This document shows positions 16,157-31,094 of a stretch of DNA of 32,624 bases, one piece after another (the stretch's first letter is position 1; each line of letters begins with the position of its first letter). The stretch lies in assembly GCA_017530275.1 (NCBI GenBank), contig JAFXMP010000032.1, positions 1 through 32,624 of the forward strand, read 5' to 3'. Made by a program: the position numbers and the translations under genes. The stretch comes from Clostridia bacterium. GTDB lineage: Bacteria; Bacillota_A; Clostridia; Christensenellales; Aristaeellaceae. The notes beneath the pieces are model-generated. The model saw only the letters and a program-made list of their open reading frames with translations. It searched no databases and was not told where the DNA came from.

Positions 16157-17971
16157 TCATCGTTGCTTGAGCCATTTTTCCACATTTCGATATACGATCC
16201 CATTGGGCAAATCCTGATCGGCGCCGCGGTAGAGAATACATTTGGTGGTGATCTCGCCGTATTTGCGTTCCGCGTCGGCGCAGAGTTCATCATCATTCAG
16301 GACGTGATACTGCCGCTCGACGATTTCCCGGCTGTGCTTGATCTCATAGGCTTCGCTGGTGTTATTCCCCGCGTGGTAAATGAACATATCAAACTCACTC
16401 CGGCTCAGCACTAGCTTGAAAGCACGATCCTCTTTACGCAAGGAACGAGCGATTTCCAGCAGAACGATATCTTCCATCATACGGCCCCGAACCTCTTCCA
16501 GAATTTTCTCTGTCGCGAGTTTCTTATCATGTTCGCTGAAGCTTTGGAAAAGGGAATCTTTCATCAAAACATGAACCAATGCCTGCGCCTGGCAGTAGCG
16601 CATGCCGGGCTGTGTGAAGAGCACGTATTCCGTCGGTTCTGCGTCAATGACCGTAGTTTCCACGGGGCAGTCCACCACCAGATCGAGGGCTTTCAGGTAT
16701 TCCTTGATTTCCTCCACATGCGCCTGGGTAATGCCGACCTTCTGATCCTCCTGATTGCGGATTTCCAGCATTTCCATCAATTTCTTCGTGACGGCTTCCC
16801 GGTCAATTTGATCCAGGATATCCGTCCGCTTTTCAGGATCGGGCTGCTTCCGCAGTACCTCGGCAGCAGAGCCCAGGTCGTGGGATTTGAAGCGCTGGAT
16901 CAGCGTCCGCAGCAGGAACTGATGGTTCATGCTCTCGATGATGCGGTTGATGGCTCCGGTGAGTTCACCAGCCTCATACAGGGTGCGCAGATGCCGGAAA
17001 TAATTCCCACGATCACAGCAGGCCAGGGAATGCTGGATGTTTTTGCAGATGGCCGTATCGATGTATCTGCGGGTGGATTCGTCATCCCGGAAAGCGGCGT
17101 CCGCTTCCAGCGCGTCTTCATCGTCGAAAGCCAGTTCCCCGGCGCGGAGCGTTCCGCCATAGCGGATGTATTCGTCGATATCGTCGATCCCCAGTAATCG
17201 GCTGTACTCCCGGAAGGGAATATACGTGGTGTGCAAGGTATAAGCGCGATCATAAAGCTCCTGATTCAGCGTAAACCAGAAGCCCAACGAATCCGTGCCG
17301 GACAGAACGATCTTCCGCCCCATCATGGCGTAAACATCGGAAAACAGAGAGGCGGAATCGATGAAGTCCTCCATCAGGGTCACTTCGTCGATGAAAAAGT
17401 AACGATAACCCAAGCTGTCCAACAATTTCAGATCCCGGTTCATGTCGGCCATGGTATCCGTTACTCTGGCCTTGATATAAACTGCTTTTTTTCTCTCGTC
17501 CGGGTGCATTTCGGCAATCGCCTGTAAAAGCAGCGTAGTTTTTCCGGTGCGACGAAGGCCGTAAAGCAGACAAACTTTGCCGGGTGTGTTCCCTTGCATG
17601 TATTTTTGCAGGGAAGTGAAGCAATCCCGCTTTTGAAGCCCCTCGACGCTGGAGATCATATGATCGAGCTCCACGCCAGAAACCACGCGGGTATGATAAA
17701 CAGGCGCCTCCGCTTTCACGGAAGACACCCCCGCTTCTTTTCTCAGCTTTCTCAATTCCTGCTGGATTTCTTTCCGGCGTTCCAATTGCTTCATCGTTAT
17801 TTCCCGCTCATCCAACTTGATATAACGGGATTTCGTCTTTCCACCATCCGACCATTGAAGATAAGGCTGCTCTTTGCCCTTGATCTTCTTCATGACAAGG
17901 TTTCCCATGGGCAGCCGGGCAAGTTCTTCTTCCAATGCCGCTATGCGGGCGCTCATTTCGATGGATGTCAC
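16157..17971 (-). CDS. AAA ATPase with C-terminal PD-(D/E)XK-like domain (AAA_14/DUF4143-like)
   Basis: The 604-residue protein has three parts. Residues about 5-80 are a charged helical region with the KKIKGKEQPYLQW...YIKLDE pattern. Next is an ATPase domain with Walker A LLYGLRRTGKTTLL and Walker B YRYFFIDEVTLM, then a C-terminal domain with EFDMFIYHAG and YEIKHS, which fits the D...ExK core of PD-(D/E)XK nucleases. Such ATPases are widespread accessory genes of unclear role. The GTG at 17971 is chosen because GGAGG lies 8 bases upstream; the open frame back to 18025 crosses the promoter. A perfect TTGACA promoter overlaps a large inverted repeat, so the gene is probably tightly regulated. 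Confidence 0.75.
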   Translation of the reverse strand: MTSIEMSARIAALEEELARLPMGNLVMKKIKGKEQPYLQWSDGGKTKSRYIKLDEREITMKQLERRKEIQQELRKLRKEAGVSSVKAEAPVYHTRVVSGVELDHMISSVEGLQKRDCFTSLQKYMQGNTPGKVCLLYGLRRTGKTTLLLQAIAEMHPDERKKAVYIKARVTDTMADMNRDLKLLDSLGYRYFFIDEVTLMEDFIDSASLFSDVYAMMGRKIVLSGTDSLGFWFTLNQELYDRAYTLHTTYIPFREYSRLLGIDDIDEYIRYGGTLRAGELAFDDEDALEADAAFRDDESTRRYIDTAICKNIQHSLACCDRGNYFRHLRTLYEAGELTGAINRIIESMNHQFLLRTLIQRFKSHDLGSAAEVLRKQPDPEKRTDILDQIDREAVTKKLMEMLEIRNQEDQKVGITQAHVEEIKEYLKALDLVVDCPVETTVIDAEPTEYVLFTQPGMRYCQAQALVHVLMKDSLFQSFSEHDKKLATEKILEEVRGRMMEDIVLLEIARSLRKEDRAFKLVLSRSEFDMFIYHAGNNTSEAYEIKHSREIVERQYHVLNDDELCADAERKYGEITTKCILYRGADQDLPNGIVYRNVEKWLKQR

Positions 17972-17990
17972 ACGAAACACCTCCATCAGC

Positions 17991-18019
17991 ATGATAACAC
18001 GCGATAACCATTTTGTCAA
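17991..18019 (-). promoter_or_regulatory. consensus promoter of the 16157-17971 ATPase gene
   Basis: Read on the - strand, TTGACA (18019-18014), a 17-base spacer and TATCAT (17996-17991) form a near-perfect sigma-A promoter 20 bases before the GTG start. The spacer is occupied by one arm of the inverted repeat at 17993-18046. Confidence 0.82.
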
Positions 18020-18046
18020 TCTCATTGTTGGTTATCTCGTGTTATC
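17993..18046. promoter_or_regulatory. putative operator: inverted repeat with four GTTATC half-sites
   Basis: GATAACACGCGATAACC (17993-18009) and GGTTATCTCGTGTTATC (18030-18046) are inverted repeats with one mismatch in 17, separated by 20 bases. Each arm contains GATAAC (or GTTATC) twice, 10 bases apart, about one helical turn. The left arm covers the promoter spacer and -10, so a bound protein would block transcription. Confidence 0.75.
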
Positions 18047-18823: not shown

Positions 18824-19837
18824 TTAACTATGCTTTGTTTCCTTACTTTTTTGCTTGGCTTCTTTTTCCAGCCCCTTCACTGTTTCCAGGTAGGCTTTTT
18901 CCACCGGGGACAGCGTCTGTGCCTGGAATTTGCGATATTCCGCCTGCGCCTTATCCAGCGCCTGCTGATGGCTAACGCTTCCGGCGTCCTGCAATAACTT
19001 CCGCCCGCCGGAGGAAAGCACTGCGTCCAGCTGCGCGATATAATCCCGCATATACATTGGCCGGTGCTCGATGGCCGCGATTTCGGCCAGGTCGAAGTAA
19101 CCGGAGACCAGGTTGTTCAGCACTCGCAATTCCTGCTCATCCAGATAATTCTTGGCGACGCCCACGTCCCGCAGCACGGGCAGATCGCCGGAGAAAGTGC
19201 GCAGGCCCATGAAAGGCTGCTCGGCGTCGGCACGTTGATAAATCACTTCCGCTGCCGTATGACCGTGGGCGGCGAAATGCAGCTTGTTCTGCACGATCTG
19301 GAAAAAACGGACGGAATCCTCGCTGTGTGGATCATAATCTACGCTGGTGGCGTACAGGTCCAGCACCTGCCGGTACAGCATCTTTTCCGAGGATCGAATA
19401 TCCCGGATGCGGTCCAGCAGTTCTTTCCAATAGCTGCCGCCACCATTGCCTTTCAAGCGTTCGTCGTCCAGCGTAAAACCCTTTTGCATGTACTCCTTCA
19501 AGCGGGCAGTAGCCCACTGGCGGAAACGGGTAGCTGTGATGGATTTCACGCGATAACCCACGGAGATAATAGCGTCCAGGTTATAGTAATCGACCTGATA
19601 GGTTTTCCCGTCCGCCGCAGATGTTGCATAATTTGCAACAACTGAATCCTTGGTCAATTCTCCCTCCGCAAAGATATTTTTCAGATGGCGGGAAATGGTC
19701 GATTTGCCACGGCCAAACAGCAGCGCGAGCTGATCCAGGGAGAGCCATACGGTATCCCCCTCAAACCGCACATCCACGCGGGTCAGGCCGTCGTCGGACT
19801 GGTAGACGATGATTTCGCCAAAGCTTTGTTCGGACAT
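18824..19837 (-). CDS. RhuM-family (COG3943) protein
   Basis: The 337-residue protein matches the virulence-associated RhuM family over its length. It begins GEIIVYQSDDGLTRVDVRFE, followed by LFGRGKSTISRHLKNIFAEG (a helix-turn-helix-like segment at about residues 40-60), DYYNLDAIISVGYRVKS and RFRQWATARLKEYMQKGF. The biochemical role is unknown, and members often sit next to or inside type I restriction-modification operons. That fits the truncated HsdR at 22784-23071. It precedes tag by 14 bases and follows the 150-residue gene by 60 bases on the same strand. Confidence 0.88.
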   Translation of the reverse strand: MSEQSFGEIIVYQSDDGLTRVDVRFEGDTVWLSLDQLALLFGRGKSTISRHLKNIFAEGELTKDSVVANYATSAADGKTYQVDYYNLDAIISVGYRVKSITATRFRQWATARLKEYMQKGFTLDDERLKGNGGGSYWKELLDRIRDIRSSEKMLYRQVLDLYATSVDYDPHSEDSVRFFQIVQNKLHFAAHGHTAAEVIYQRADAEQPFMGLRTFSGDLPVLRDVGVAKNYLDEQELRVLNNLVSGYFDLAEIAAIEHRPMYMRDYIAQLDAVLSSGGRKLLQDAGSVSHQQALDKAQAEYRKFQAQTLSPVEKAYLETVKGLEKEAKQKSKETKHS

Positions 19838-21681: not shown

Positions 21682-22752
21682 CTATTCTACAGCCTTTATA
21701 CCCCTCATGTTTTTTAGCTTATCTACATCTGCTTTCAATGAAAGAATATCTCCCAAAGCAATGTATGTATGAATAATGCATTGCATTGCTTGCTCTCGTG
21801 TAACACTAGAATGAACGCCTGCATTCTGCTTGCTGTTGATTTGTTCCATCCAGTCAACTAGATATGTTGTTTCACTACCAACAAGCGTGTTTTTGGCTGC
21901 TTTTGATTGAAGGGTTTCTATTACTGCGGATAACTTGTTATTATCATGATCTCCTGAAACATCTATTTCTTTTCCTGATTTTGTTTTAAAGGTCTTATTG
22001 GGATAATTCGGTAAAACTTCATTAAAAAGCATTTTTGCAGTATCTGACCACAATCTCCGACAAGAAGTAAGAACTTGTGCATTGCGTTCGGGGTTTCCAT
22101 CTTCTATCATATCTTCAATGGCATTAAGTTTTTGAATTGTTGTTGTTGGCAATGAAGAAAAATAACGATTTACTCTTTCTTGATACTCCTCAAACACAGT
22201 TTGGGCTGCTTTCCCAAATTGTAACTCGATTTGCCACTTTACAGCATAATCATAATACTGTGATTTAAGTATAGACAAACGTCGCTCATGAGTTTTAATT
22301 GATCTCAATAATTCACTTGTATTCTGAGAAACTCTCAAAGTCATGCGTTCAGTGGCAACAAGTGCGTGTTCCCCTGATACCGAAAATCCATGAGTAGTAT
22401 AGTTAGCTAAAGCTTTCTTTTCGCTTTCAATAGATGTGTCTAACTCGTCAGAGAGGTCTGTAAATATATAGGTCACTTTTTTGCCTGTGTCATCTTCTTT
22501 TTGATAAGATCGTCCATGATCAACAGCAATTTTCCATGCGTTTTGAAGGATAAAACCATCTTGGTCTCGAGGATAACCACCATATTCATAGCCAAGCCAT
22601 TCTTGCCCTTCAGGATCATTGACAAGACGAGCGATTCGCATGCAAAGTAATAATGATGCGGAAACAGAAATAGTTCCATCTTCGATTCCATTTATAGCTT
22701 TTCCACAGGCTTCAAGCGCTTGTTCTCTTTTATTGGCAATACTACTCATCAT
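21682..22752 (-). CDS. AbiTii-like abortive infection protein
   Basis: The N-terminal 90 residues match the AbiTii domain pattern: helix, LLLCMRIARLVNDPEGQEWL, then GYEYGGYP. The same arrangement of a helical segment, DP..EW and an acidic/Gly-Tyr-Pro stretch is known from abortive infection proteins. The remaining 260 residues are helical and unassigned, with a long coiled region near 130-190. The first ATG at 22752 follows AAAGG by a short gap. The gene begins 31 bases after the stop of the truncated HsdR and precedes the HEPN-motif gene, so it may be read from the old hsdR transcript. The role in phage defence is an inference. Confidence 0.65.
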   Translation of the reverse strand: MMSSIANKREQALEACGKAINGIEDGTISVSASLLLCMRIARLVNDPEGQEWLGYEYGGYPRDQDGFILQNAWKIAVDHGRSYQKEDDTGKKVTYIFTDLSDELDTSIESEKKALANYTTHGFSVSGEHALVATERMTLRVSQNTSELLRSIKTHERRLSILKSQYYDYAVKWQIELQFGKAAQTVFEEYQERVNRYFSSLPTTTIQKLNAIEDMIEDGNPERNAQVLTSCRRLWSDTAKMLFNEVLPNYPNKTFKTKSGKEIDVSGDHDNNKLSAVIETLQSKAAKNTLVGSETTYLVDWMEQINSKQNAGVHSSVTREQAMQCIIHTYIALGDILSLKADVDKLKNMRGIKAVE

Positions 22753-22783: not shown

Positions 22784-23071
22784 TCAGATTGTCATACCAA
22801 AGACCATACCAACTTGCGGATGGGTGGCATAATCTTCCGCCTGTTTTTGGATATCTTCCCCTAGCGGGTTTTCCTCCCGCTTGGCTTCGAGGAGGGCAAT
22901 CGCTTTATCATCCACAAACAGGAGGTAATTGCTTTCCGTGTTTCCCTGCATCAGCGCTTCTTGAATGGCAGAGGCACGACGGGGGATGTATTCTTCGCGA
23001 GAAATAATCTCCCAACCGGCTTTTTTCAATTGTCGGTTGATCCGCTCTCGCGCTTTTTCTTCGGGAAGCAT
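22784..23071 (-). pseudogene. hsdR: truncated type I restriction subunit R (HsdR N-terminus)
   Basis: The 95-residue frame resembles only the N-terminal nuclease domain of HsdR-type proteins. It has ARERINRQLKKAGWEII, then YLLFVDDKAIALLEAKREEN, with the D...ExK catalytic triad of the PD-(D/E)XK fold, and QAEDYATHPQVGMVFG. HsdR is normally 800-1,000 residues, with helicase motor domains that are absent here. The frame stops right where the AbiTii gene begins. A functioning type I enzyme would also need hsdM and hsdS, which are not in the window. Confidence 0.75.
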
Positions 23072-23337: not shown

Positions 23338-25188
23338 ATGGATTATATGACGATATCGGAAGCGGCGAAGCAGTGGGGTATTTCTTCCCGCCGTGTTCAG
23401 CAGCTCTGCAAGGAAGGAGCCATCGCAGGCGCAAAAAAGGAAGGGCGATCCTGGCTGATTCCTGCTGATACGCAAATGACTGTCAGGACGAAAGCAATGA
23501 ACCGCAGGCAACTTCTTCCGTTGCCGGTCGGGATTTCTAGCTATATTGAAGCTGTGACCAAATACTATTATATCGACAAAACGCTGCTGATCAGGGACTT
23601 GCTCGATTCCCTGCCCAAGGTATCGCTGTTTACAAGGCCGCGACGCTTTGGCAAAACGCTGAACATGGATATGCTGCGCGTTTTCTTTGAACGAACGAAA
23701 GCGGATACATCCCAATATTTCAAAGAAAAAGCCATCTGGAAATGCGATGATTACTACCAACGCTTCCAAGGGCAATACCCTGTCATCTATCTCTCGTTCA
23801 AGGACGTCAAATATACGACCTGGGAAAATGCGCTGAAAGACATTGCCGCCAATATTCGTGGCGAATACGCCCGCCATCAGGAGCTGGCGGAAAGCACTGC
23901 CTGCAATGCGGTTGAGCTGCAAACCTATCAGGCCATCGTGGCAGGGCAGGCGGATGAAGTCATGCTCTCCCGTTCGCTGGCTGTCCTTTCCTCCATGCTT
24001 CATAAGCATTATGGCGTGGAGACCGTAATTATCATTGATGAATACGATACGCCCATCCAGCAGGGTTATACCTGTGGATACTATGATCAGGTGATCGGCT
24101 TTATCCGGAATCTGTTTTCAGGAGCCTTCAAGGATAATGCGGATTTGGCCTACGGGTTCTTGACCGGCATCCTGCGGGTAGCCAAGGAAAGCATTTTCAG
24201 CGGCATGAACAACCTGAAGGTCAATACGATCCTGGATGACCGCTACAGCAGCTACTTCGGTTTTACGAAAGAAGAAGTAGCCCAAATGCTGGCGTATTAC
24301 GGCAGTGAAGAAAAGCTGGCCGAGGTCTGCGAATGGTATGACGGCTACCAGTTTGGGCAATCGGAGATTTTTAATCCCTGGTCGGTCATCAATTATGTGG
24401 ATGATAACTGCCGTCCGAAAGCCTTCTGGCAGTCCACCGGCAGCAATGAGATCATCGGGGAGATCATTGCGCAGGCGTCCCCTGCCATTATGGAAAACCT
24501 TCGCCTGCTGATGCAGGGAACGCCTGTCACGACCTACGTGGATACTGGCGTAATCTATCCCGAAGTCAAAAAGAATCCATCCAGCATCTACAGTTTTCTG
24601 CTCGTCGCCGGTTATCTTCGCTGCATGGAAATTATCCCGCAGGATGACGGCAATTTCATGTGCCGGGTTTCCATCCCGAACAAGGAAATCTCTTTCGTAT
24701 TTGCCAAAGAGATCATTTCCAGGCTGAATACTGTCTGCGCGGAATCCACAGCAGCGGCCATTCAGCAGGCGATCTTCGAGAAAAAAACGGATCACCTGCA
24801 TCAAAGCATCGCGGCCTACCTGACCGAATCCATCAGCGTCTATGATACGGGCAGCGAAGCATTCTATCAGGGATTGATGATCGGCCTGTGCGCCATCCTC
24901 AATCACCGGTATGCTGTTCGTTCCAATCGGGAGGCCGGGCTGGGGCGTTTTGACATTCAACTGGCCCCGATAGATCGGCAGTTGCCGGGCTTTATCTTTG
25001 AACTAAAAGCATCAAAGAAAGACACCGAGAGGCTGGATGCCCTGGCGGCCAAGGCGCTTGATCAAATCAAAGAAAAACAGTATATCTCTGAGATGAAAGC
25101 AGCCGGCATCAAAGAAATTGTCTTGATTGGCATTGCTTTCCGAAGAAAAGAAGTCGCGCTGATCAGTGAAAGCTGTGATGAATGCTGA
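23338..25188 (+). CDS. HTH-AAA ATPase-PD-(D/E)XK fusion (AAA-ATPase_like plus PDDEXK_9/DUF1703)
   Basis: The 616-residue protein has three parts. Residues 4-45 are an excisionase/MerR-like helix-turn-helix (TISEAAKQWGISSRRVQQLC, KEGAIAGAKKEGRSWLIP). Residues about 60-290 are an AAA-ATPase_like domain with Walker A FTRPRRFGKT and Walker B VIIIDEYDTPI. The C-terminus (about 535-600) is a DUF1703-type PD-(D/E)XK fold with GRFDIQLAPID and FIFELKASK. The family is common in anaerobes and its role is unknown. GAGG lies about 8 bases before the ATG. The HTH fused in front is not universal and makes direct binding to the ATTTCGCGAAAT sites upstream plausible. Confidence 0.85.
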   Translation: MDYMTISEAAKQWGISSRRVQQLCKEGAIAGAKKEGRSWLIPADTQMTVRTKAMNRRQLLPLPVGISSYIEAVTKYYYIDKTLLIRDLLDSLPKVSLFTRPRRFGKTLNMDMLRVFFERTKADTSQYFKEKAIWKCDDYYQRFQGQYPVIYLSFKDVKYTTWENALKDIAANIRGEYARHQELAESTACNAVELQTYQAIVAGQADEVMLSRSLAVLSSMLHKHYGVETVIIIDEYDTPIQQGYTCGYYDQVIGFIRNLFSGAFKDNADLAYGFLTGILRVAKESIFSGMNNLKVNTILDDRYSSYFGFTKEEVAQMLAYYGSEEKLAEVCEWYDGYQFGQSEIFNPWSVINYVDDNCRPKAFWQSTGSNEIIGEIIAQASPAIMENLRLLMQGTPVTTYVDTGVIYPEVKKNPSSIYSFLLVAGYLRCMEIIPQDDGNFMCRVSIPNKEISFVFAKEIISRLNTVCAESTAAAIQQAIFEKKTDHLHQSIAAYLTESISVYDTGSEAFYQGLMIGLCAILNHRYAVRSNREAGLGRFDIQLAPIDRQLPGFIFELKASKKDTERLDALAAKALDQIKEKQYISEMKAAGIKEIVLIGIAFRRKEVALISESCDEC

Positions 25189-25588
25189 GACTCATTTTGT
25201 GATTTGAAAAGGAATGATCTGTTTGTAAGCATGATACGGAAACTCAAATGCTTCTCTCTTGAAATGAAGATGAAAATGTGATAAAATGTCAAAGCATGTA
25301 GAGTCATTTCTTTAATACATATCGAAATGAACGGTGTGTGCATAACAGTTTATAGATGCTTTACAAAAAGAACTATTAATACAGAAATGCTGGGGATTAT
25401 GATTTTGGCATAGGAATTGATAATGATGATAGTTTATATTATGGATGAGTAGAACCTACAATCAGCAGTAAAATAATCCTAATACAGACTCTTTGTCAAG
25501 AACTATATAATTTCAAAAGACGACTATTTAATAATACAGTAACAGTATACTTGTTGCATGAACTAATATATTAGTGGAGGTATTAAAA
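25189..25588. other. AT-rich gene-free stretch before the DUF262 pair
   Basis: About 400 bases hold no convincing gene. Base composition changes here from moderate GC to strongly AT-rich, which marks a boundary of a transferred segment. A perfect 12-bp palindrome CTAATATATTAG (25563-25574) overlaps the ribosome binding region of the next gene. A TATAAT is present at 25506-25511 without a clear -35. Confidence 0.5.
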
Positions 25589-27304
25589 ATGACTACAATT
25601 AGGCTTATGACAGTGAATGAATTATCTCAGTATTCTTTCTTTATACCATCTTATCAAAGAGGATATCGTTGGACGAAGTTAGAGGTTGAAGATTTATTAA
25701 ATGATATCAATGAATTTAAACCTAAAGAGATTAATGAATCTGGAGAGAAAACGTGGTACTGTTTACAGCCGATAGTTGTAAAAAATGATTCGGAATTGAA
25801 GTATGAAGTAATTGATGGTCAACAAAGGCTAACAACGCTCTATCTAATCTTACATTATCTAAATCAGGATTTTATCGAATCAAAAAGAGATAAACTATTT
25901 TCAATTGATTATGAAACAAGAGAGACTTCAAAGGAGTTTTTACAACACCCTGAACAAGAGGATAATAGCAATATTGATTTCTTTTATATTCATTCTGCTT
26001 ATATTACCATACAAAACTGGTTTCAAAAACAAAGCGAGGATTTGAACTATGATCAAAATAATTTTCGTTCCAAATTGAAGTTTTCAACAAGGGTAATATG
26101 GTACGAGACTGAAGAAGTTGCTTCTACCCAAGTATTCACAAGACTCAACATTGGAAAAATAAGTTTAACGAATGCCGAACTTATTAAGGCATTGTTTTTA
26201 AACAGTTCCAACTTTCGTTCAAACGACGAGGAAGGAATGCGTTTGCGACAAGTTGAGATTGCGAACGAATGGGATCAGATTGAAATGGCTTTACATAATA
26301 GTTCCCTTTGGTATTTCTTAAATAACGATGAAAAAGAAGATAATAGAATCGAATACATTTTTAATCTAATGAATGAACATATCAGCGATGATAATTATTC
26401 GACTTTTAGGTTTTTTAGCGAAAGACTTATTGCTAAGACAGAATCAGTATTAAAAGAGAACTGGGAAGAAGTACACAATTATTTCCAGCGCTTTGATGAA
26501 TGGTTTCATGATAGAGAGTTGTATCATAAAATAGGATTTGTTCTTACATCTAGGATACTTTCATCAAAGATCATTTCGCCAATCGCTGAATTGTACAATG
26601 CTGCAAGCGAAAAAACAAAGAGTGAGTTTAAATGTTACCTGGATGACTTAATCAAAACAAAATATAAATCAAAGCAATTGCTTGATATGGACTACAGTGA
26701 TGATGAAACACGAAATATATTGCTACTTTATAATATTCTTACTATGCTACAAAATAACAATGAAGGTTCGTATTTTCCTTTTGATATATATAAACTAAAC
26801 AAATGGAATATTGAGCATATTACGCCAAGAAAAGACATCAGTTCAGTCCCGCCTAATGTAAGAGAACAATGGAGCAAAGATGTTAAATACTACATTGACT
26901 TAACGGTTGATGGTGCTTCTGAATTGAATGAAAGTATTGATCATTATCTATCTCAAAAGACTTGGGATGATGATACTGTTTTTGAGCCTATTTTCGACAA
27001 AGTGATTGAACATTTTAATCATCACATAAAACTTGAAACAGAGATAGACAACATATCCAACTTGACTCTTTTGGATGAAAAGACAAATAAAAGCTATAAA
27101 AATGCAGTATTCCCGCTGAAAAGAAAAAGGATTATTGATTTGGATAAAAGCGGTGGATTTGTCCCGCTATGTACCAAAAATGTATTTCTAAAATACTTTA
27201 GTGACTATCCACCTAAAATCTCTTTTTGGACTGATGAAGATCGAAGAAAATATGAAGAAGACTTGATAAGGGTTTTAAGTGACTATTTGGAGGTGAATAA
27301 CTAA
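25589..27304 (+). CDS. DUF262-DUF1524 protein (GmrSD/BrxU/SspE-like)
   Basis: The 571-residue protein has an N-terminal DUF262 (ParB-like fold) with IPSYQRGYRW (residues 19-28) and the DGQQR motif (76-80) followed by LTTLYLIL. The C-terminus is DUF1524, an HNH-like nuclease, with EHITPRKD (His410) and NLTLLDEKTNKSYKN (Asn491). In GmrSD, BrxU and SspE this combination uses nucleotide hydrolysis to cut modified or unmodified phage DNA. The ATG at 25589 has GGAGGT 8 bases upstream; an in-frame ATG at 25574 overlaps that site. The stop overlaps the next ATG (TAATG), so translation is coupled. Very AT-rich compared with the neighbours. Confidence 0.85.
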   Translation: MTTIRLMTVNELSQYSFFIPSYQRGYRWTKLEVEDLLNDINEFKPKEINESGEKTWYCLQPIVVKNDSELKYEVIDGQQRLTTLYLILHYLNQDFIESKRDKLFSIDYETRETSKEFLQHPEQEDNSNIDFFYIHSAYITIQNWFQKQSEDLNYDQNNFRSKLKFSTRVIWYETEEVASTQVFTRLNIGKISLTNAELIKALFLNSSNFRSNDEEGMRLRQVEIANEWDQIEMALHNSSLWYFLNNDEKEDNRIEYIFNLMNEHISDDNYSTFRFFSERLIAKTESVLKENWEEVHNYFQRFDEWFHDRELYHKIGFVLTSRILSSKIISPIAELYNAASEKTKSEFKCYLDDLIKTKYKSKQLLDMDYSDDETRNILLLYNILTMLQNNNEGSYFPFDIYKLNKWNIEHITPRKDISSVPPNVREQWSKDVKYYIDLTVDGASELNESIDHYLSQKTWDDDTVFEPIFDKVIEHFNHHIKLETEIDNISNLTLLDEKTNKSYKNAVFPLKRKRIIDLDKSGGFVPLCTKNVFLKYFSDYPPKISFWTDEDRRKYEEDLIRVLSDYLEVNN

Positions 27305-29274
27305 TGTCTGTAACCGATAACACTATTTATACTTTTTATGAGCTTGCCAAACAATATCGTATTCAAATTCCAATTATTCAACGTGATTATGCGCAAGGAA
27401 GGACTACCAATACAGATGTTTGCAAAAATTTCTTAAACGCTCTTTACGACAGTATAAAAAATAATCAGTCAATAAATTTAGATTTCATATACGGAAATAT
27501 AAAGGATGATGTTTTTCTTCCTCTCGATGGTCAACAGCGGTTGACAACGCTCTTTCTTCTTCATTGGTATGCATATCAAAAAGATAATAAGACCGAAGAA
27601 GCAAAAAAACTCTTGTGTAAATTCTCGTATGAAACGAGAATTTCTTCAAGGCGGTTTTGCGAATCGTTAGTTATGCACCAAACAGATATAAATGAAAGTT
27701 CTAAGATAAGTGATGATATTATCAATTCAAAATGGTTCTTTTTGTCATGGAAATTAGATCCAACTGTACATGCTATGCTTAACACAATAGATTTGATTCA
27801 CTCCATCTTCTTTCAAGTTGATGAACTCTGGAGTGCTTTGGTCGATAATAAGATTATAACTTTTCATTTGCTGATATTGGAGCATTTTGGATTATCGGAT
27901 GATCTGTACATAAAAATGAATGCCAGAGGTCGACTATTAACGCCTTTTGAAAATCTCAAGGCTGAATTGCAGGGAAAAATTGAAAAAAATAGCTGGGAAA
28001 AAGAAAAGCCCACTATAGAGAGATTTGCTAATAAAGTGGATACGATATGGACTGATTTTTTATGGTCAAATTATCGAAAAAATAATACTATCGACGATGC
28101 TCACATGAATTTTATAACATCTTTAGTAATGTACAGAATTTCTATTAGTCAAAATTATAATTATTCTGAAAGAATCAATCTCATCCAGAAATTGAACGAA
28201 AACAACGCAGTAAGGAATTTGATCCAATATATTGATAAGGAAGATTTCGAGTATATTTGCAAATGTTATGATTTGTATGCAGAACTTGTGAAAACTAATA
28301 CTGTTCCGAAACTTGATCTTGAAATGTGGAGGCACAATCCAGACACCGATTTACTGTATCAAATATTAGTTGGAAATAATACATCCTATACTCATAGAGT
28401 ACTATTTTATGCACAAACTGAATTTTATTTGAATAACAGTAATAGAGACCAGGATCGCTTCTTAAGTTGGATGAGAGTTGTAAGAAATATCATTTCAAGA
28501 GCAGATGTTACTGCTGAAGGGAAAAGGCCTGATATTATTAGAAGTCCTGAAAATTTTGCAGGTGTAATAAGCCTTATTTATGAATTGGCAAAAGGGTCAG
28601 AATCAATTTATGATTTCTTAAATACAAATAATGTAGTATCTTCGTTTGCAAGAGAACAGACCAATGAAGAAAAGCTTAAAGCGAATATTATTTGCATGTA
28701 TCCGGACAAAAAACAATTGATTTTCCATACAGAAGATAATCAATTACTGAGAGGAAAAATAACATTTGCGTTAAAGTGCTCTGGATACAACGGAACCATT
28801 GAATCTATTGATTTTACCCTTTTAGAAAAAGTGCAGTCTGTGTTTGAAAAAAACTTCAACAACGAAGAATTAGAAGATTTTGACAAACTACGGAGAGCTA
28901 TGCTAACAATTCCTTTAGACGGAAAATATAGATTTTATGAGTATTGGTATTCTTATTGGTATGCTGGAGAAGCAGATAAGTATAAGCTTTTTTCAAATTT
29001 CAGAGAGATTGAGTTCTTTATTGGGAAAGATGATTTTAGTGGATATTTTAAAGAATTAGTGTTGAAACTAACTGTTCTCGATTATGATGGTATTATTGAA
29101 GATTTTAAAAAACCGGAAACAATGGAAAATTGGCAATTTAGAATTATTAAAGAAGAAGAACTAATAAAAAAATGCAATAACAAGTATATAGCAATTCCTA
29201 AGGATCGGTCATTCTGTTATTTGCTAAAAGGGAAAAGGCCATCAAAATTAGAGAGTGCTGAAAAAGTTGAGTAG
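27304..29274 (+). CDS. second DUF262 protein, partner of the gene upstream
   Basis: The 656-residue protein has the DUF262 signatures PIIQRDYAQGR (residues 23-33), DGQQRLTTL (75-83) and KMNARGRLLTPFENLKAEL, but no HxxP/NLTLL pair at its end, so it lacks a recognisable DUF1524 nuclease. The rest is helical and unassigned, with a Tyr/Trp-rich stretch near residue 540-555 (YRFYEYWYSYWYAG). The ATG shares one base with the stop of the first gene, which argues for a fixed two-protein unit, perhaps sensor plus nuclease. AT-rich like its partner. The function as a defence pair is an inference. Confidence 0.8.
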   Translation: MSVTDNTIYTFYELAKQYRIQIPIIQRDYAQGRTTNTDVCKNFLNALYDSIKNNQSINLDFIYGNIKDDVFLPLDGQQRLTTLFLLHWYAYQKDNKTEEAKKLLCKFSYETRISSRRFCESLVMHQTDINESSKISDDIINSKWFFLSWKLDPTVHAMLNTIDLIHSIFFQVDELWSALVDNKIITFHLLILEHFGLSDDLYIKMNARGRLLTPFENLKAELQGKIEKNSWEKEKPTIERFANKVDTIWTDFLWSNYRKNNTIDDAHMNFITSLVMYRISISQNYNYSERINLIQKLNENNAVRNLIQYIDKEDFEYICKCYDLYAELVKTNTVPKLDLEMWRHNPDTDLLYQILVGNNTSYTHRVLFYAQTEFYLNNSNRDQDRFLSWMRVVRNIISRADVTAEGKRPDIIRSPENFAGVISLIYELAKGSESIYDFLNTNNVVSSFAREQTNEEKLKANIICMYPDKKQLIFHTEDNQLLRGKITFALKCSGYNGTIESIDFTLLEKVQSVFEKNFNNEELEDFDKLRRAMLTIPLDGKYRFYEYWYSYWYAGEADKYKLFSNFREIEFFIGKDDFSGYFKELVLKLTVLDYDGIIEDFKKPETMENWQFRIIKEEELIKKCNNKYIAIPKDRSFCYLLKGKRPSKLESAEKVE

Positions 29275-29660: not shown

Positions 29661-31094
29661 ATGATCGGGCGGGAAAAAGAAGTCAAGGAACTGAACAAGC
29701 TGTATGACAGAAACCGTGCGGAGCTGGTAGCCGTTTATGGAAGACGCCGCGTTGGCAAAACTTATTTGATCGACGAAACCTTTGCGGGCAGGATCACTTT
29801 CCGCCATGCCGGGCTTTCCCCGGCAGATGAAGACGCGAAAGGTCTGCTTCGAGCCCAGCTCGATCACTTTTATAACTCTTTGATTCTTTTCGGTATGGAG
29901 AAAAGCAGCAAGCCGGATAACTGGCTGGATGCCTTTCTGCTGCTGGAACAATTTCTGCAAAAAAAAGACGATGGCTCACGGCAGCTTGTATTTCTGGATG
30001 AATTGCCTTGGCTGGACACGCCGCGGTCAGGGTTTATCAGAGCTTTTGAAGGCTTCTGGAATAACTGGGGCTGTCATCGGAAAAACCTGATGGTCATTGT
30101 ATGCGGCAGCGCCAACTCCTGGATGATGAACAGCCTGATCAACAATCACGGCGGTCTGTATAACCGGGTCACCTATGAAATCAAGCTCGCTCCCTTCACG
30201 TTGCGAGAATGTGAAGCGTTCTTCCAGGCAAACAATATCAGGTTTTCGAGATACGATATTGCCCAGAGCTACATGATCTTTGGCGGTATTCCGTATTATC
30301 TGGGGTATTTTGACGGCGAATATAGCCTGGCTCAGAATGTGGACAGGATGATCTTTGCCAGAAACGCAAAGCTGAAGGATGAATACGACAGGCTGTATCA
30401 ATCGGTGTTTATCAACCCGGACACAGAAAAGGCTATCGTAACCTTCTTAGCAACCCGCAACGCAGGCTATACCAGAAAGGAAATAGCCGACAAGCTCGGT
30501 ATGTCCGATGGAGGCAGGCTATCCAAGAATCTGAATGCGTTGATCGCCAGTGATTTTGTTGTAAAATATGTGCCTTTTGGTATGGGAAAGCGGGAGGAAC
30601 ACTATAAAGTTGTCGATCCGTTCTGCCTGTTCTATCTGCATTTTGCCCGTGAGATAAACGGCGGCAGCGAATCCTTCTGGCAGGAAAACGTGACCGCCCA
30701 ACCCGTTGTCACCTGGCGGGGCTTGGCTTTTGAACATGTTTGCTTTAATCACATTCTCCAGATCAAAAAGGCGCTGGGCATTTCCGGCGTCATTACCTCT
30801 GCTTCCGCATGGTCCAAACGGGAGGACGATCAGGACGGAACACAAATTGATTTGCTGCTAACCCGGAATGATAACGTTCTGAATATGTGTGAAATCAAGT
30901 ACTATGGCGGCAAATTCACCGTAAAAAAGGACGATTACCTGACGCTGCTCGGCAGACAGGAAATTCTGATGAGCAAAGTGAGTCCCAAAATGACGATCCG
31001 CAGCACGCTTATTACCACATATGGGCTGACGCAAAATGAATATAGCGGAGTATTTACCAATGTAATCACATTGGATGATTTGTTCGCTGATTAG
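29661..31094 (+). CDS. ATP-binding protein, archaeal-type ATPase with DUF234 (PD-(D/E)XK-like) C-terminus
   Basis: The 477-residue protein has an N-terminal ATPase domain of the PF01637 type, with Walker A VYGRRRVGKTYLI (about residues 25-37) and Walker B QLVFLDELPWLD. A winged-helix segment follows near residue 270-300 (GYTRKEIADKLGMSDGGRLS), and the C-terminal DUF234 region has IDLLLTRND and NMCEIKYYGGKF, the D...ExK core. These genes are scattered accessory elements of unknown function. GGGGG lies about 9 bases before the ATG. It is GC-richer than the DUF262 pair before it, so it was acquired separately. It is followed 27 bases later by the unidentified gene. Confidence 0.86.
   Translation: MIGREKEVKELNKLYDRNRAELVAVYGRRRVGKTYLIDETFAGRITFRHAGLSPADEDAKGLLRAQLDHFYNSLILFGMEKSSKPDNWLDAFLLLEQFLQKKDDGSRQLVFLDELPWLDTPRSGFIRAFEGFWNNWGCHRKNLMVIVCGSANSWMMNSLINNHGGLYNRVTYEIKLAPFTLRECEAFFQANNIRFSRYDIAQSYMIFGGIPYYLGYFDGEYSLAQNVDRMIFARNAKLKDEYDRLYQSVFINPDTEKAIVTFLATRNAGYTRKEIADKLGMSDGGRLSKNLNALIASDFVVKYVPFGMGKREEHYKVVDPFCLFYLHFAREINGGSESFWQENVTAQPVVTWRGLAFEHVCFNHILQIKKALGISGVITSASAWSKREDDQDGTQIDLLLTRNDNVLNMCEIKYYGGKFTVKKDDYLTLLGRQEILMSKVSPKMTIRSTLITTYGLTQNEYSGVFTNVITLDDLFAD

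Follow-up and report, generated by a model that had tools for sequence, protein, structure and literature searches.

A conserved pair of DUF262 genes in a Clostridia bacterium and its likeness to the two-gene GmrSD-like defence systems

Among the proteins that carry a DUF262 domain, the single-chain GmrSD, BrxU and SspE act as one polypeptide, and DndI also works in this way, whereas the pair considered here has a second DUF262 protein adjoining the first. The two genes, named A and B in the following, lie on the forward strand of a contig from a Clostridia bacterium (GenBank assembly GCA_017530275.1, contig JAFXMP010000032.1), whose positions 1 to 32,624 were analysed as a whole and are referred to as the window. 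An earlier note, made from the sequence alone, had taken the pair as a split arrangement in which one partner lacks the nuclease, and as a possible distinct sensor-effector system.

Systems with two DUF262 proteins have been published in the last few years, and what is said of them here follows those parts of the respective reports on which this comparison draws. In GrwAB, from the WASA lineage of Vibrio cholerae, the armed (nuclease-bearing) gene comes first and is followed by a gene whose DUF262 product has additional domains of unknown kind; both GrwA and GrwB are required for defence, which is lost in the DGQQR mutants GrwA R81A and GrwB R86A as well as in GrwA H431A, N521A and N530A (PMC12137116). 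The targets described for this system include phages with hypermodified bases, Bas24 escapers carry changes in the modifying enzyme DpdA, the system occurs in about 1% of genomes, and GrwB and TgvA are distinct outside DUF262 (PMC12137116). In TgvAB, from VPI-2 of V. cholerae, both proteins have DUF262 and one has DUF1524, both partners are needed, and the genes lie within a type I restriction cluster (PMC11411939). As for the ECOR17 GmrS1-GmrSD2 pair, each protein alone gave no protection and co-induction was toxic (PMC12373910). A review has considered the requirement for two proteins as unusual and deserving of more study (PMC12409362).

In the window, gene A (25589..27304) encodes a GrwA-like protein of 571 amino acids and gene B (27304..29274) a GrwB-like protein of 656 amino acids, both assigned from an intact open reading frame (ORF), Pfam matches and residue alignment. 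The TAA stop codon of A (27302-27304) and the ATG start codon of B (27304) have base 27304 in common, forming the TAATG junction at 27302..27306, so that the one-base overlap described in the earlier note stands. For A, the start at ATG 25589 is preferred over GTG 25574, where the mechanical ORF begins, because GGAGG, its likely ribosome-binding site, is found 8 bases upstream (25576..25580, forward strand). Within the 3' end of A, AGGTG (27291..27295, forward strand) is a possible ribosome-binding site which, judging by its sequence, can act for B.

Protein A matched the Pfam family GmrSD_N (DUF262) with 105.6 bits (cut-off 33.2), and its DUF262 part holds the motifs QR (residues 23-24), DGQQR (76-80) and FxxxN (183-187, with F183 and N187). 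After a linker, the residues of a DUF1524-type His-Me nuclease follow, namely E409, H410, N491 and N500. The GmrSD_C (DUF1524) match, found in A alone, reached 20.7 bits, below the cut-off of 23, and of 16 aligned A sequences the window protein alone had a GmrSD_C match at E<=0.01, so that the nuclease assignment rests on the residues, which are the stronger evidence. Across the 83 A relatives of the loci fetched, 82 rows conserve E409 and H410 (with 1 gap) and all 83 conserve N491 and N500, every row bearing a letter agreeing on the His-Me H, N and N, and DGQQR was conserved in 80 rows (3 gaps). An HNH-like end in the first protein only and a DGQQR in both (84 of 84 rows for B) had been proposed before, and both hold; the HxxP motif suggested for that end does not, the P column being S in 50 rows, A in 32 and a gap in 1. 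PADLOC gave 21 partial matches on A, mostly within its first 100-odd residues (Orf5, HEC-06, SspE, NsnA). The top PDB sequence match of the A profile was an 818-amino-acid DUF262 protein (20yv / 20yw), and the predicted structure of A was of too poor a quality for use.

Protein B has the size of a complete DUF262 protein in its own right and does not supply the missing half of a GmrSD, so that the term split pair does not apply. Its GmrSD_N match reached 66.9 bits (cut-off 33.2), and its motifs are QR (26-27), DGQQR (75-79) and YxxxN (202-206), the first two conserved in 84 of 84 rows and the third reading YxxxN, not FxxxN, in the same 84. A helical part with conserved R391 and N395 comes next, and then a C-terminal part, with conserved E477, G484 and W610, that lacks a nuclease signature; a conserved segment reads YIKMNxRG. 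The helical and C-terminal parts diverge faster than the DUF262 part, and the length of B across lineages is mostly about 640 to 890 amino acids, with Vibrio parahaemolyticus records (P0251, P0257) among the relatives of long form. PADLOC found no match for B, and Foldseek none for its model at E<=0.001, while VIA-align matched the model as far as residue 488 or so to SspE, DndI and BrxU, the first two being the best solved-structure matches, with coverage limited to DUF262 and the helical region. No known fold was therefore retained for the C-terminal region, as VIA-align stops at about 488 and Foldseek returned nothing at that threshold, which does not imply a new fold. The possibility that B is a degenerate nuclease was also considered, and neither the profile alignment, the model nor the histidine columns support it. 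With shallow profiles, hhalign extended the alignment of the two proteins beyond DUF262 and placed E409-H410 of A opposite R394-N395 of B; with the 84- and 85-row profiles DUF262 alone aligned (B 68-122 with A 69-121, probability 96.9), the regions past it giving probabilities of 0.5 and 1.3%. R394-N395 sit in a helix in the model of B, and among the window columns past residue 470, counted in 84 rows with the insertions of longer B forms left out, none had H in 40 or more rows, the maximum being 31 at column 479.

The genes A and B are a conserved two-gene unit. A genome scan with the B profile alone gave at least 545 confirmed stretches, the best 80 of which were taken as loci, and in 79 of these an A relative immediately preceded B on its own strand, the A profile having played no part in fetching them; in the eightieth (L073) the contig begins inside the region. 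Measured on mechanical ORF calls, the spacing from A to B was -16 to +8 bases for 68 of the 83 pairs. Moreover, genomes were drawn without regard to A or B, apart from one seed genome per draw; in these, the two profiles each found 5 of 391 Clostridia and each found 9 of 395 Bacteroidia, the two sets being identical in both cases (4/390 and 8/394 once the seed genomes are removed), with adjacency checked on the fetched loci. With the B profile only, 369 Gammaproteobacteria gave 3 matches including the seed, each with A adjoining. The pair was present in the 4 plasmid places fetched out of 17 hits, A being split into two ORFs in one of them, and in 11 of 11 loci on viral contigs from IMG/VR; the phage collection gave no match for the DNA of the pair nor for protein B. 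The distance matrices of A and B were correlated (r=0.88, 81 sequences, a value reached in 0 of 2000 permutations), shared ancestry being uncontrolled in this figure. The hosts, with phyla assigned from record titles, belong to Bacillota, Bacteroidota, Pseudomonadota, Campylobacterota, Spirochaetota, Verrucomicrobiota, Fibrobacterota and others. The earlier note had suggested looking for the pair in other genomes, and had named each gene usually occurring alone as a refutation; this was not what was found, decayed copies in Escherichia coli being exceptions.

These exceptions, together with the way in which the samples were taken, weigh against the reading of A and B as a unit. The Limnobaculum pair has matches in 28 of 5426 E. 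coli genomes, 7 of them over at least 80% of it, and 13 of the 20 matches listed contain B with only the last ~140 bases of A. In the single locus of this sort that was fetched (L089), insertion sequence elements lie beside a short A remnant with B intact, whereas another E. coli locus (L088) has an intact relative; A is split in two further loci (L011 and L083). B can thus persist without an intact A, as the E. coli matches and L089 indicate. Besides, the genome draws were made at E<=1e-20 with at most 3 candidates scored per genome, which leaves remote single GmrSD proteins uncounted, and the 80 loci are the best of the at least 545 stretches mentioned above. As an observation in its own right, the decayed E. 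coli copies have the armed gene lost or interrupted and the partner gene retained.

A two-protein GmrSD-like frame is apt for this locus, since it combines a conserved unit, one armed gene and an NTPase motif in both proteins. As gene order, motifs and type of partner match those of GrwAB, the pair is read, with a probability of about 0.75, as a two-protein restriction system of the GrwAB kind, regulated by nucleoside triphosphates (NTP) and dependent on DNA modification (type IV). In such a system, A and B would be produced together from one operon, coupled through the observed overlap, and would act as one complex, as suggested by the conserved pairing found here and by the reported requirement for GrwA as well as GrwB. 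Base-modified phage DNA might be recognised by the DUF262 domains, by the C-terminal part of B or by both, and the two DUF262 domains would both switch the complex by binding or hydrolysing NTP, R80 of A and R79 of B corresponding to the residues changed in GrwA R81A and GrwB R86A as reported. The DUF1524 part of A would then cut the DNA, with H410, N491 and N500 in the place of H431, N521 and N530 of GrwA as described.

Other explanations differ mainly in the task that they give to B. If A alone were the restriction enzyme and B a regulator restraining it to protect the host, the finding that A carries every nuclease and NTPase residue looked for, with no nuclease signature in B, would be accounted for; we regard this as improbable, given that, in the accounts consulted, neither GrwAB nor TgvAB protein protects alone, and that in ECOR17 each alone gives no protection and both together are toxic. 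By analogy with these three cases, in which single proteins gave no protection, B is argued to be a required partner. A still lower likelihood is given to the view that phosphorothioate DNA, and not base-modified phage DNA, is what the pair detects, in the manner of SspE or DndI: these two proteins are the top solved-structure matches of the B model, but the match is limited to the DUF262 and helical parts, and Pfam scans of 15 ORFs of the window gave no ssp or dnd gene. The least probable explanation, and a very unlikely one, is that B serves mainly as a shield or decoy, by which the system escapes the inhibitors, Ip1-Ip3 for instance, that phages direct against GmrSD enzymes. T4 is reported to inject distinct inhibitors for different GmrSD variants (PMC12373910), and the parts of B beyond DUF262 diverge faster than DUF262 itself, both of which speak for such a role; nevertheless, the DGQQR arginine of GrwB is described as required for defence (PMC12137116), which suggests an active role, and the motif is conserved in 84 of 84 B rows. 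The YIKMNxRG segment, R391, N395, E477, G484 and W610 of B are direct mutational targets for the question of why two proteins are needed.

The base composition of the pair differs from that of its surroundings, with a G+C content of 31.7% (A 31.8%, B 31.6%, both with a third-position G+C under 0.30). The window averages 55.3% over 1-15 kb, 47.5% over 15-25.2 kb and 47.3% over 29.7-32.6 kb; its recA gene has 59.9%, and the two genes flanking the pair have 48-50%. This low value relative to recA and the flanks suggests, as a matter of composition, that A and B were acquired horizontally. From it, the earlier note had concluded that the segment was mobile: the AT-richness stands, while mobility is not established: there is no integrase among the window ORFs scanned and no repeat framing the pair (nor any convincing repeat around it), and in 73 of the 79 related loci, too, the pair is richer in AT than the DNA on either side. 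A second AT-rich stretch, of about 36% G+C, lies at 20.5-22.5 kb.

The part of the window from 16 to 32 kb looks like a defence-rich region. Downstream of the pair, an ATPase_2 protein (29661-31094, forward strand) is a PDC-S27 candidate with a full-length PADLOC match of 629 bits, and upstream an AAA-ATPase_like/PDDEXK_9 protein is encoded at 23338-25188 (forward). On the reverse strand are an AbiTii-like protein (21682-22752; 27.2 bits against a cut-off of 27.6) and, beside it, a 95-amino-acid ORF (22784-23071) that matches HSDR_N weakly (22.8 bits against 25.1) and may be a remnant of a type I restriction gene; this stretch is AT-rich. An AAA_14 protein with a weak PDC-S01 match (16157-18025) and a RhuM-family protein (18824-19837) complete this reverse-strand group.

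In the related loci, one exonuclease family accounts for 11 of 826 flanking ORFs (84 loci), and 9 of these are the next ORF upstream of A, all in Bacteroidota as judged by record title (L029, L030, L031, L034, L037, L040, L050, L055 and L082); the member scanned, from L050, is RNase_T by Pfam and DEDDh by PADLOC. A tenth case (L112) came from the Bacteroidia draw. This upstream placement has a hypergeometric P of about 4e-8 assuming independent ORFs, which they are not fully, and a three-gene variant composed of DEDDh, A and B is possible in some Bacteroidota; a search of the open-access literature found no paper joining DUF262 with DEDDh. More tentatively, and with the odds clearly against it, the pair could be pictured as a "two-key" enzyme, in which two non-identical NTPase sensors, one of them armed, would form one complex and cut only when both agree, the faster-evolving C-terminal half of B containing a specificity part that lineages vary or lengthen and the upstream DEDDh of some Bacteroidota degrading the cut DNA. 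In another locus (L106) a DEDDh-type exonuclease gene is situated downstream of B.

Type I restriction genes flank the pair in seven loci (L027, L051, L061, L071, L072, L076 and L078), with hsdR immediately downstream in L071, L072, L076 and L078. Pfam confirmed hsdM and hsdS in L027, L051, L072 and L078, hsdS in L061 and hsdR in L072, the remaining assignments being made by clustering. A YgjP-like metallopeptidase ORF follows hsdR in six of the seven, all but L061. One ORF family is found near the pair in 17 of 84 loci (e.g. L050:10148-11062), the member scanned being a WYL/WCX regulator, and members of one AAA ATPase family occur close by, on the downstream side of the pair in L037, L038, L040, L055 and L082 and on its upstream side in L050, with an IetA-like score for the member scanned (L055).

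The idea of a categorically new sensor-effector system was dropped, three two-gene DUF262 systems having been published (TgvAB in 2024, GrwAB and ECOR17 GmrS1-GmrSD2 in 2025); as far as these reports describe them, they largely provide the named system whose existence the earlier note had set as a refutation of its proposal. With TgvAB, the pair shares the two-protein GmrSD-like character and, for some of its relatives, the type I cluster setting, but the order is reversed there, the DUF262-only tgvA being named first (VC1767, then VC1766), with H571 as catalytic residue. The ECOR17 pair likewise has two DUF262 genes, one armed and both needed, and differs in that GmrS1 lies upstream of GmrSD2, with catalytic E582 and H583. 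This order, with the DUF262-only gene first, was not encountered, the armed gene coming first in the window and in the 79 relatives showing both. GrwAB, according to its published description, agrees in the adjacency of the genes, in a DUF262-DUF1524 gene in first place and a nuclease-free DUF262 partner in second, and in the QR, DGQQR and H-N-N residues, QR, DGQQR and FxxxN all being present in A. The spacing of 9 between N491 and N500 equals that between N521 and N530 of GrwA, and the frequencies are alike (about 1% of genomes there, 4/390 Clostridia and 8/394 Bacteroidia here). The differences concern positions, with R80, H410, N491 and N500 in A against R81, H431, N521 and N530 in GrwA, and R79 in B against R86 in GrwB, as well as the YxxxN of B. 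This likeness was drawn from the published description (order, motifs and partner) and not from sequence identity, and none of the relatives listed bore the name of V. cholerae GrwAB. By analogy, then, the pair is a further member of the two-gene GmrSD-like group, nearest to GrwAB as described; it is a useful further example of two-gene defence rather than a new kind, and it suggests that many bacterial phyla, with the Clostridia among their members, conserve as a pair the arrangement that was characterised for GrwAB in a single V. cholerae island.
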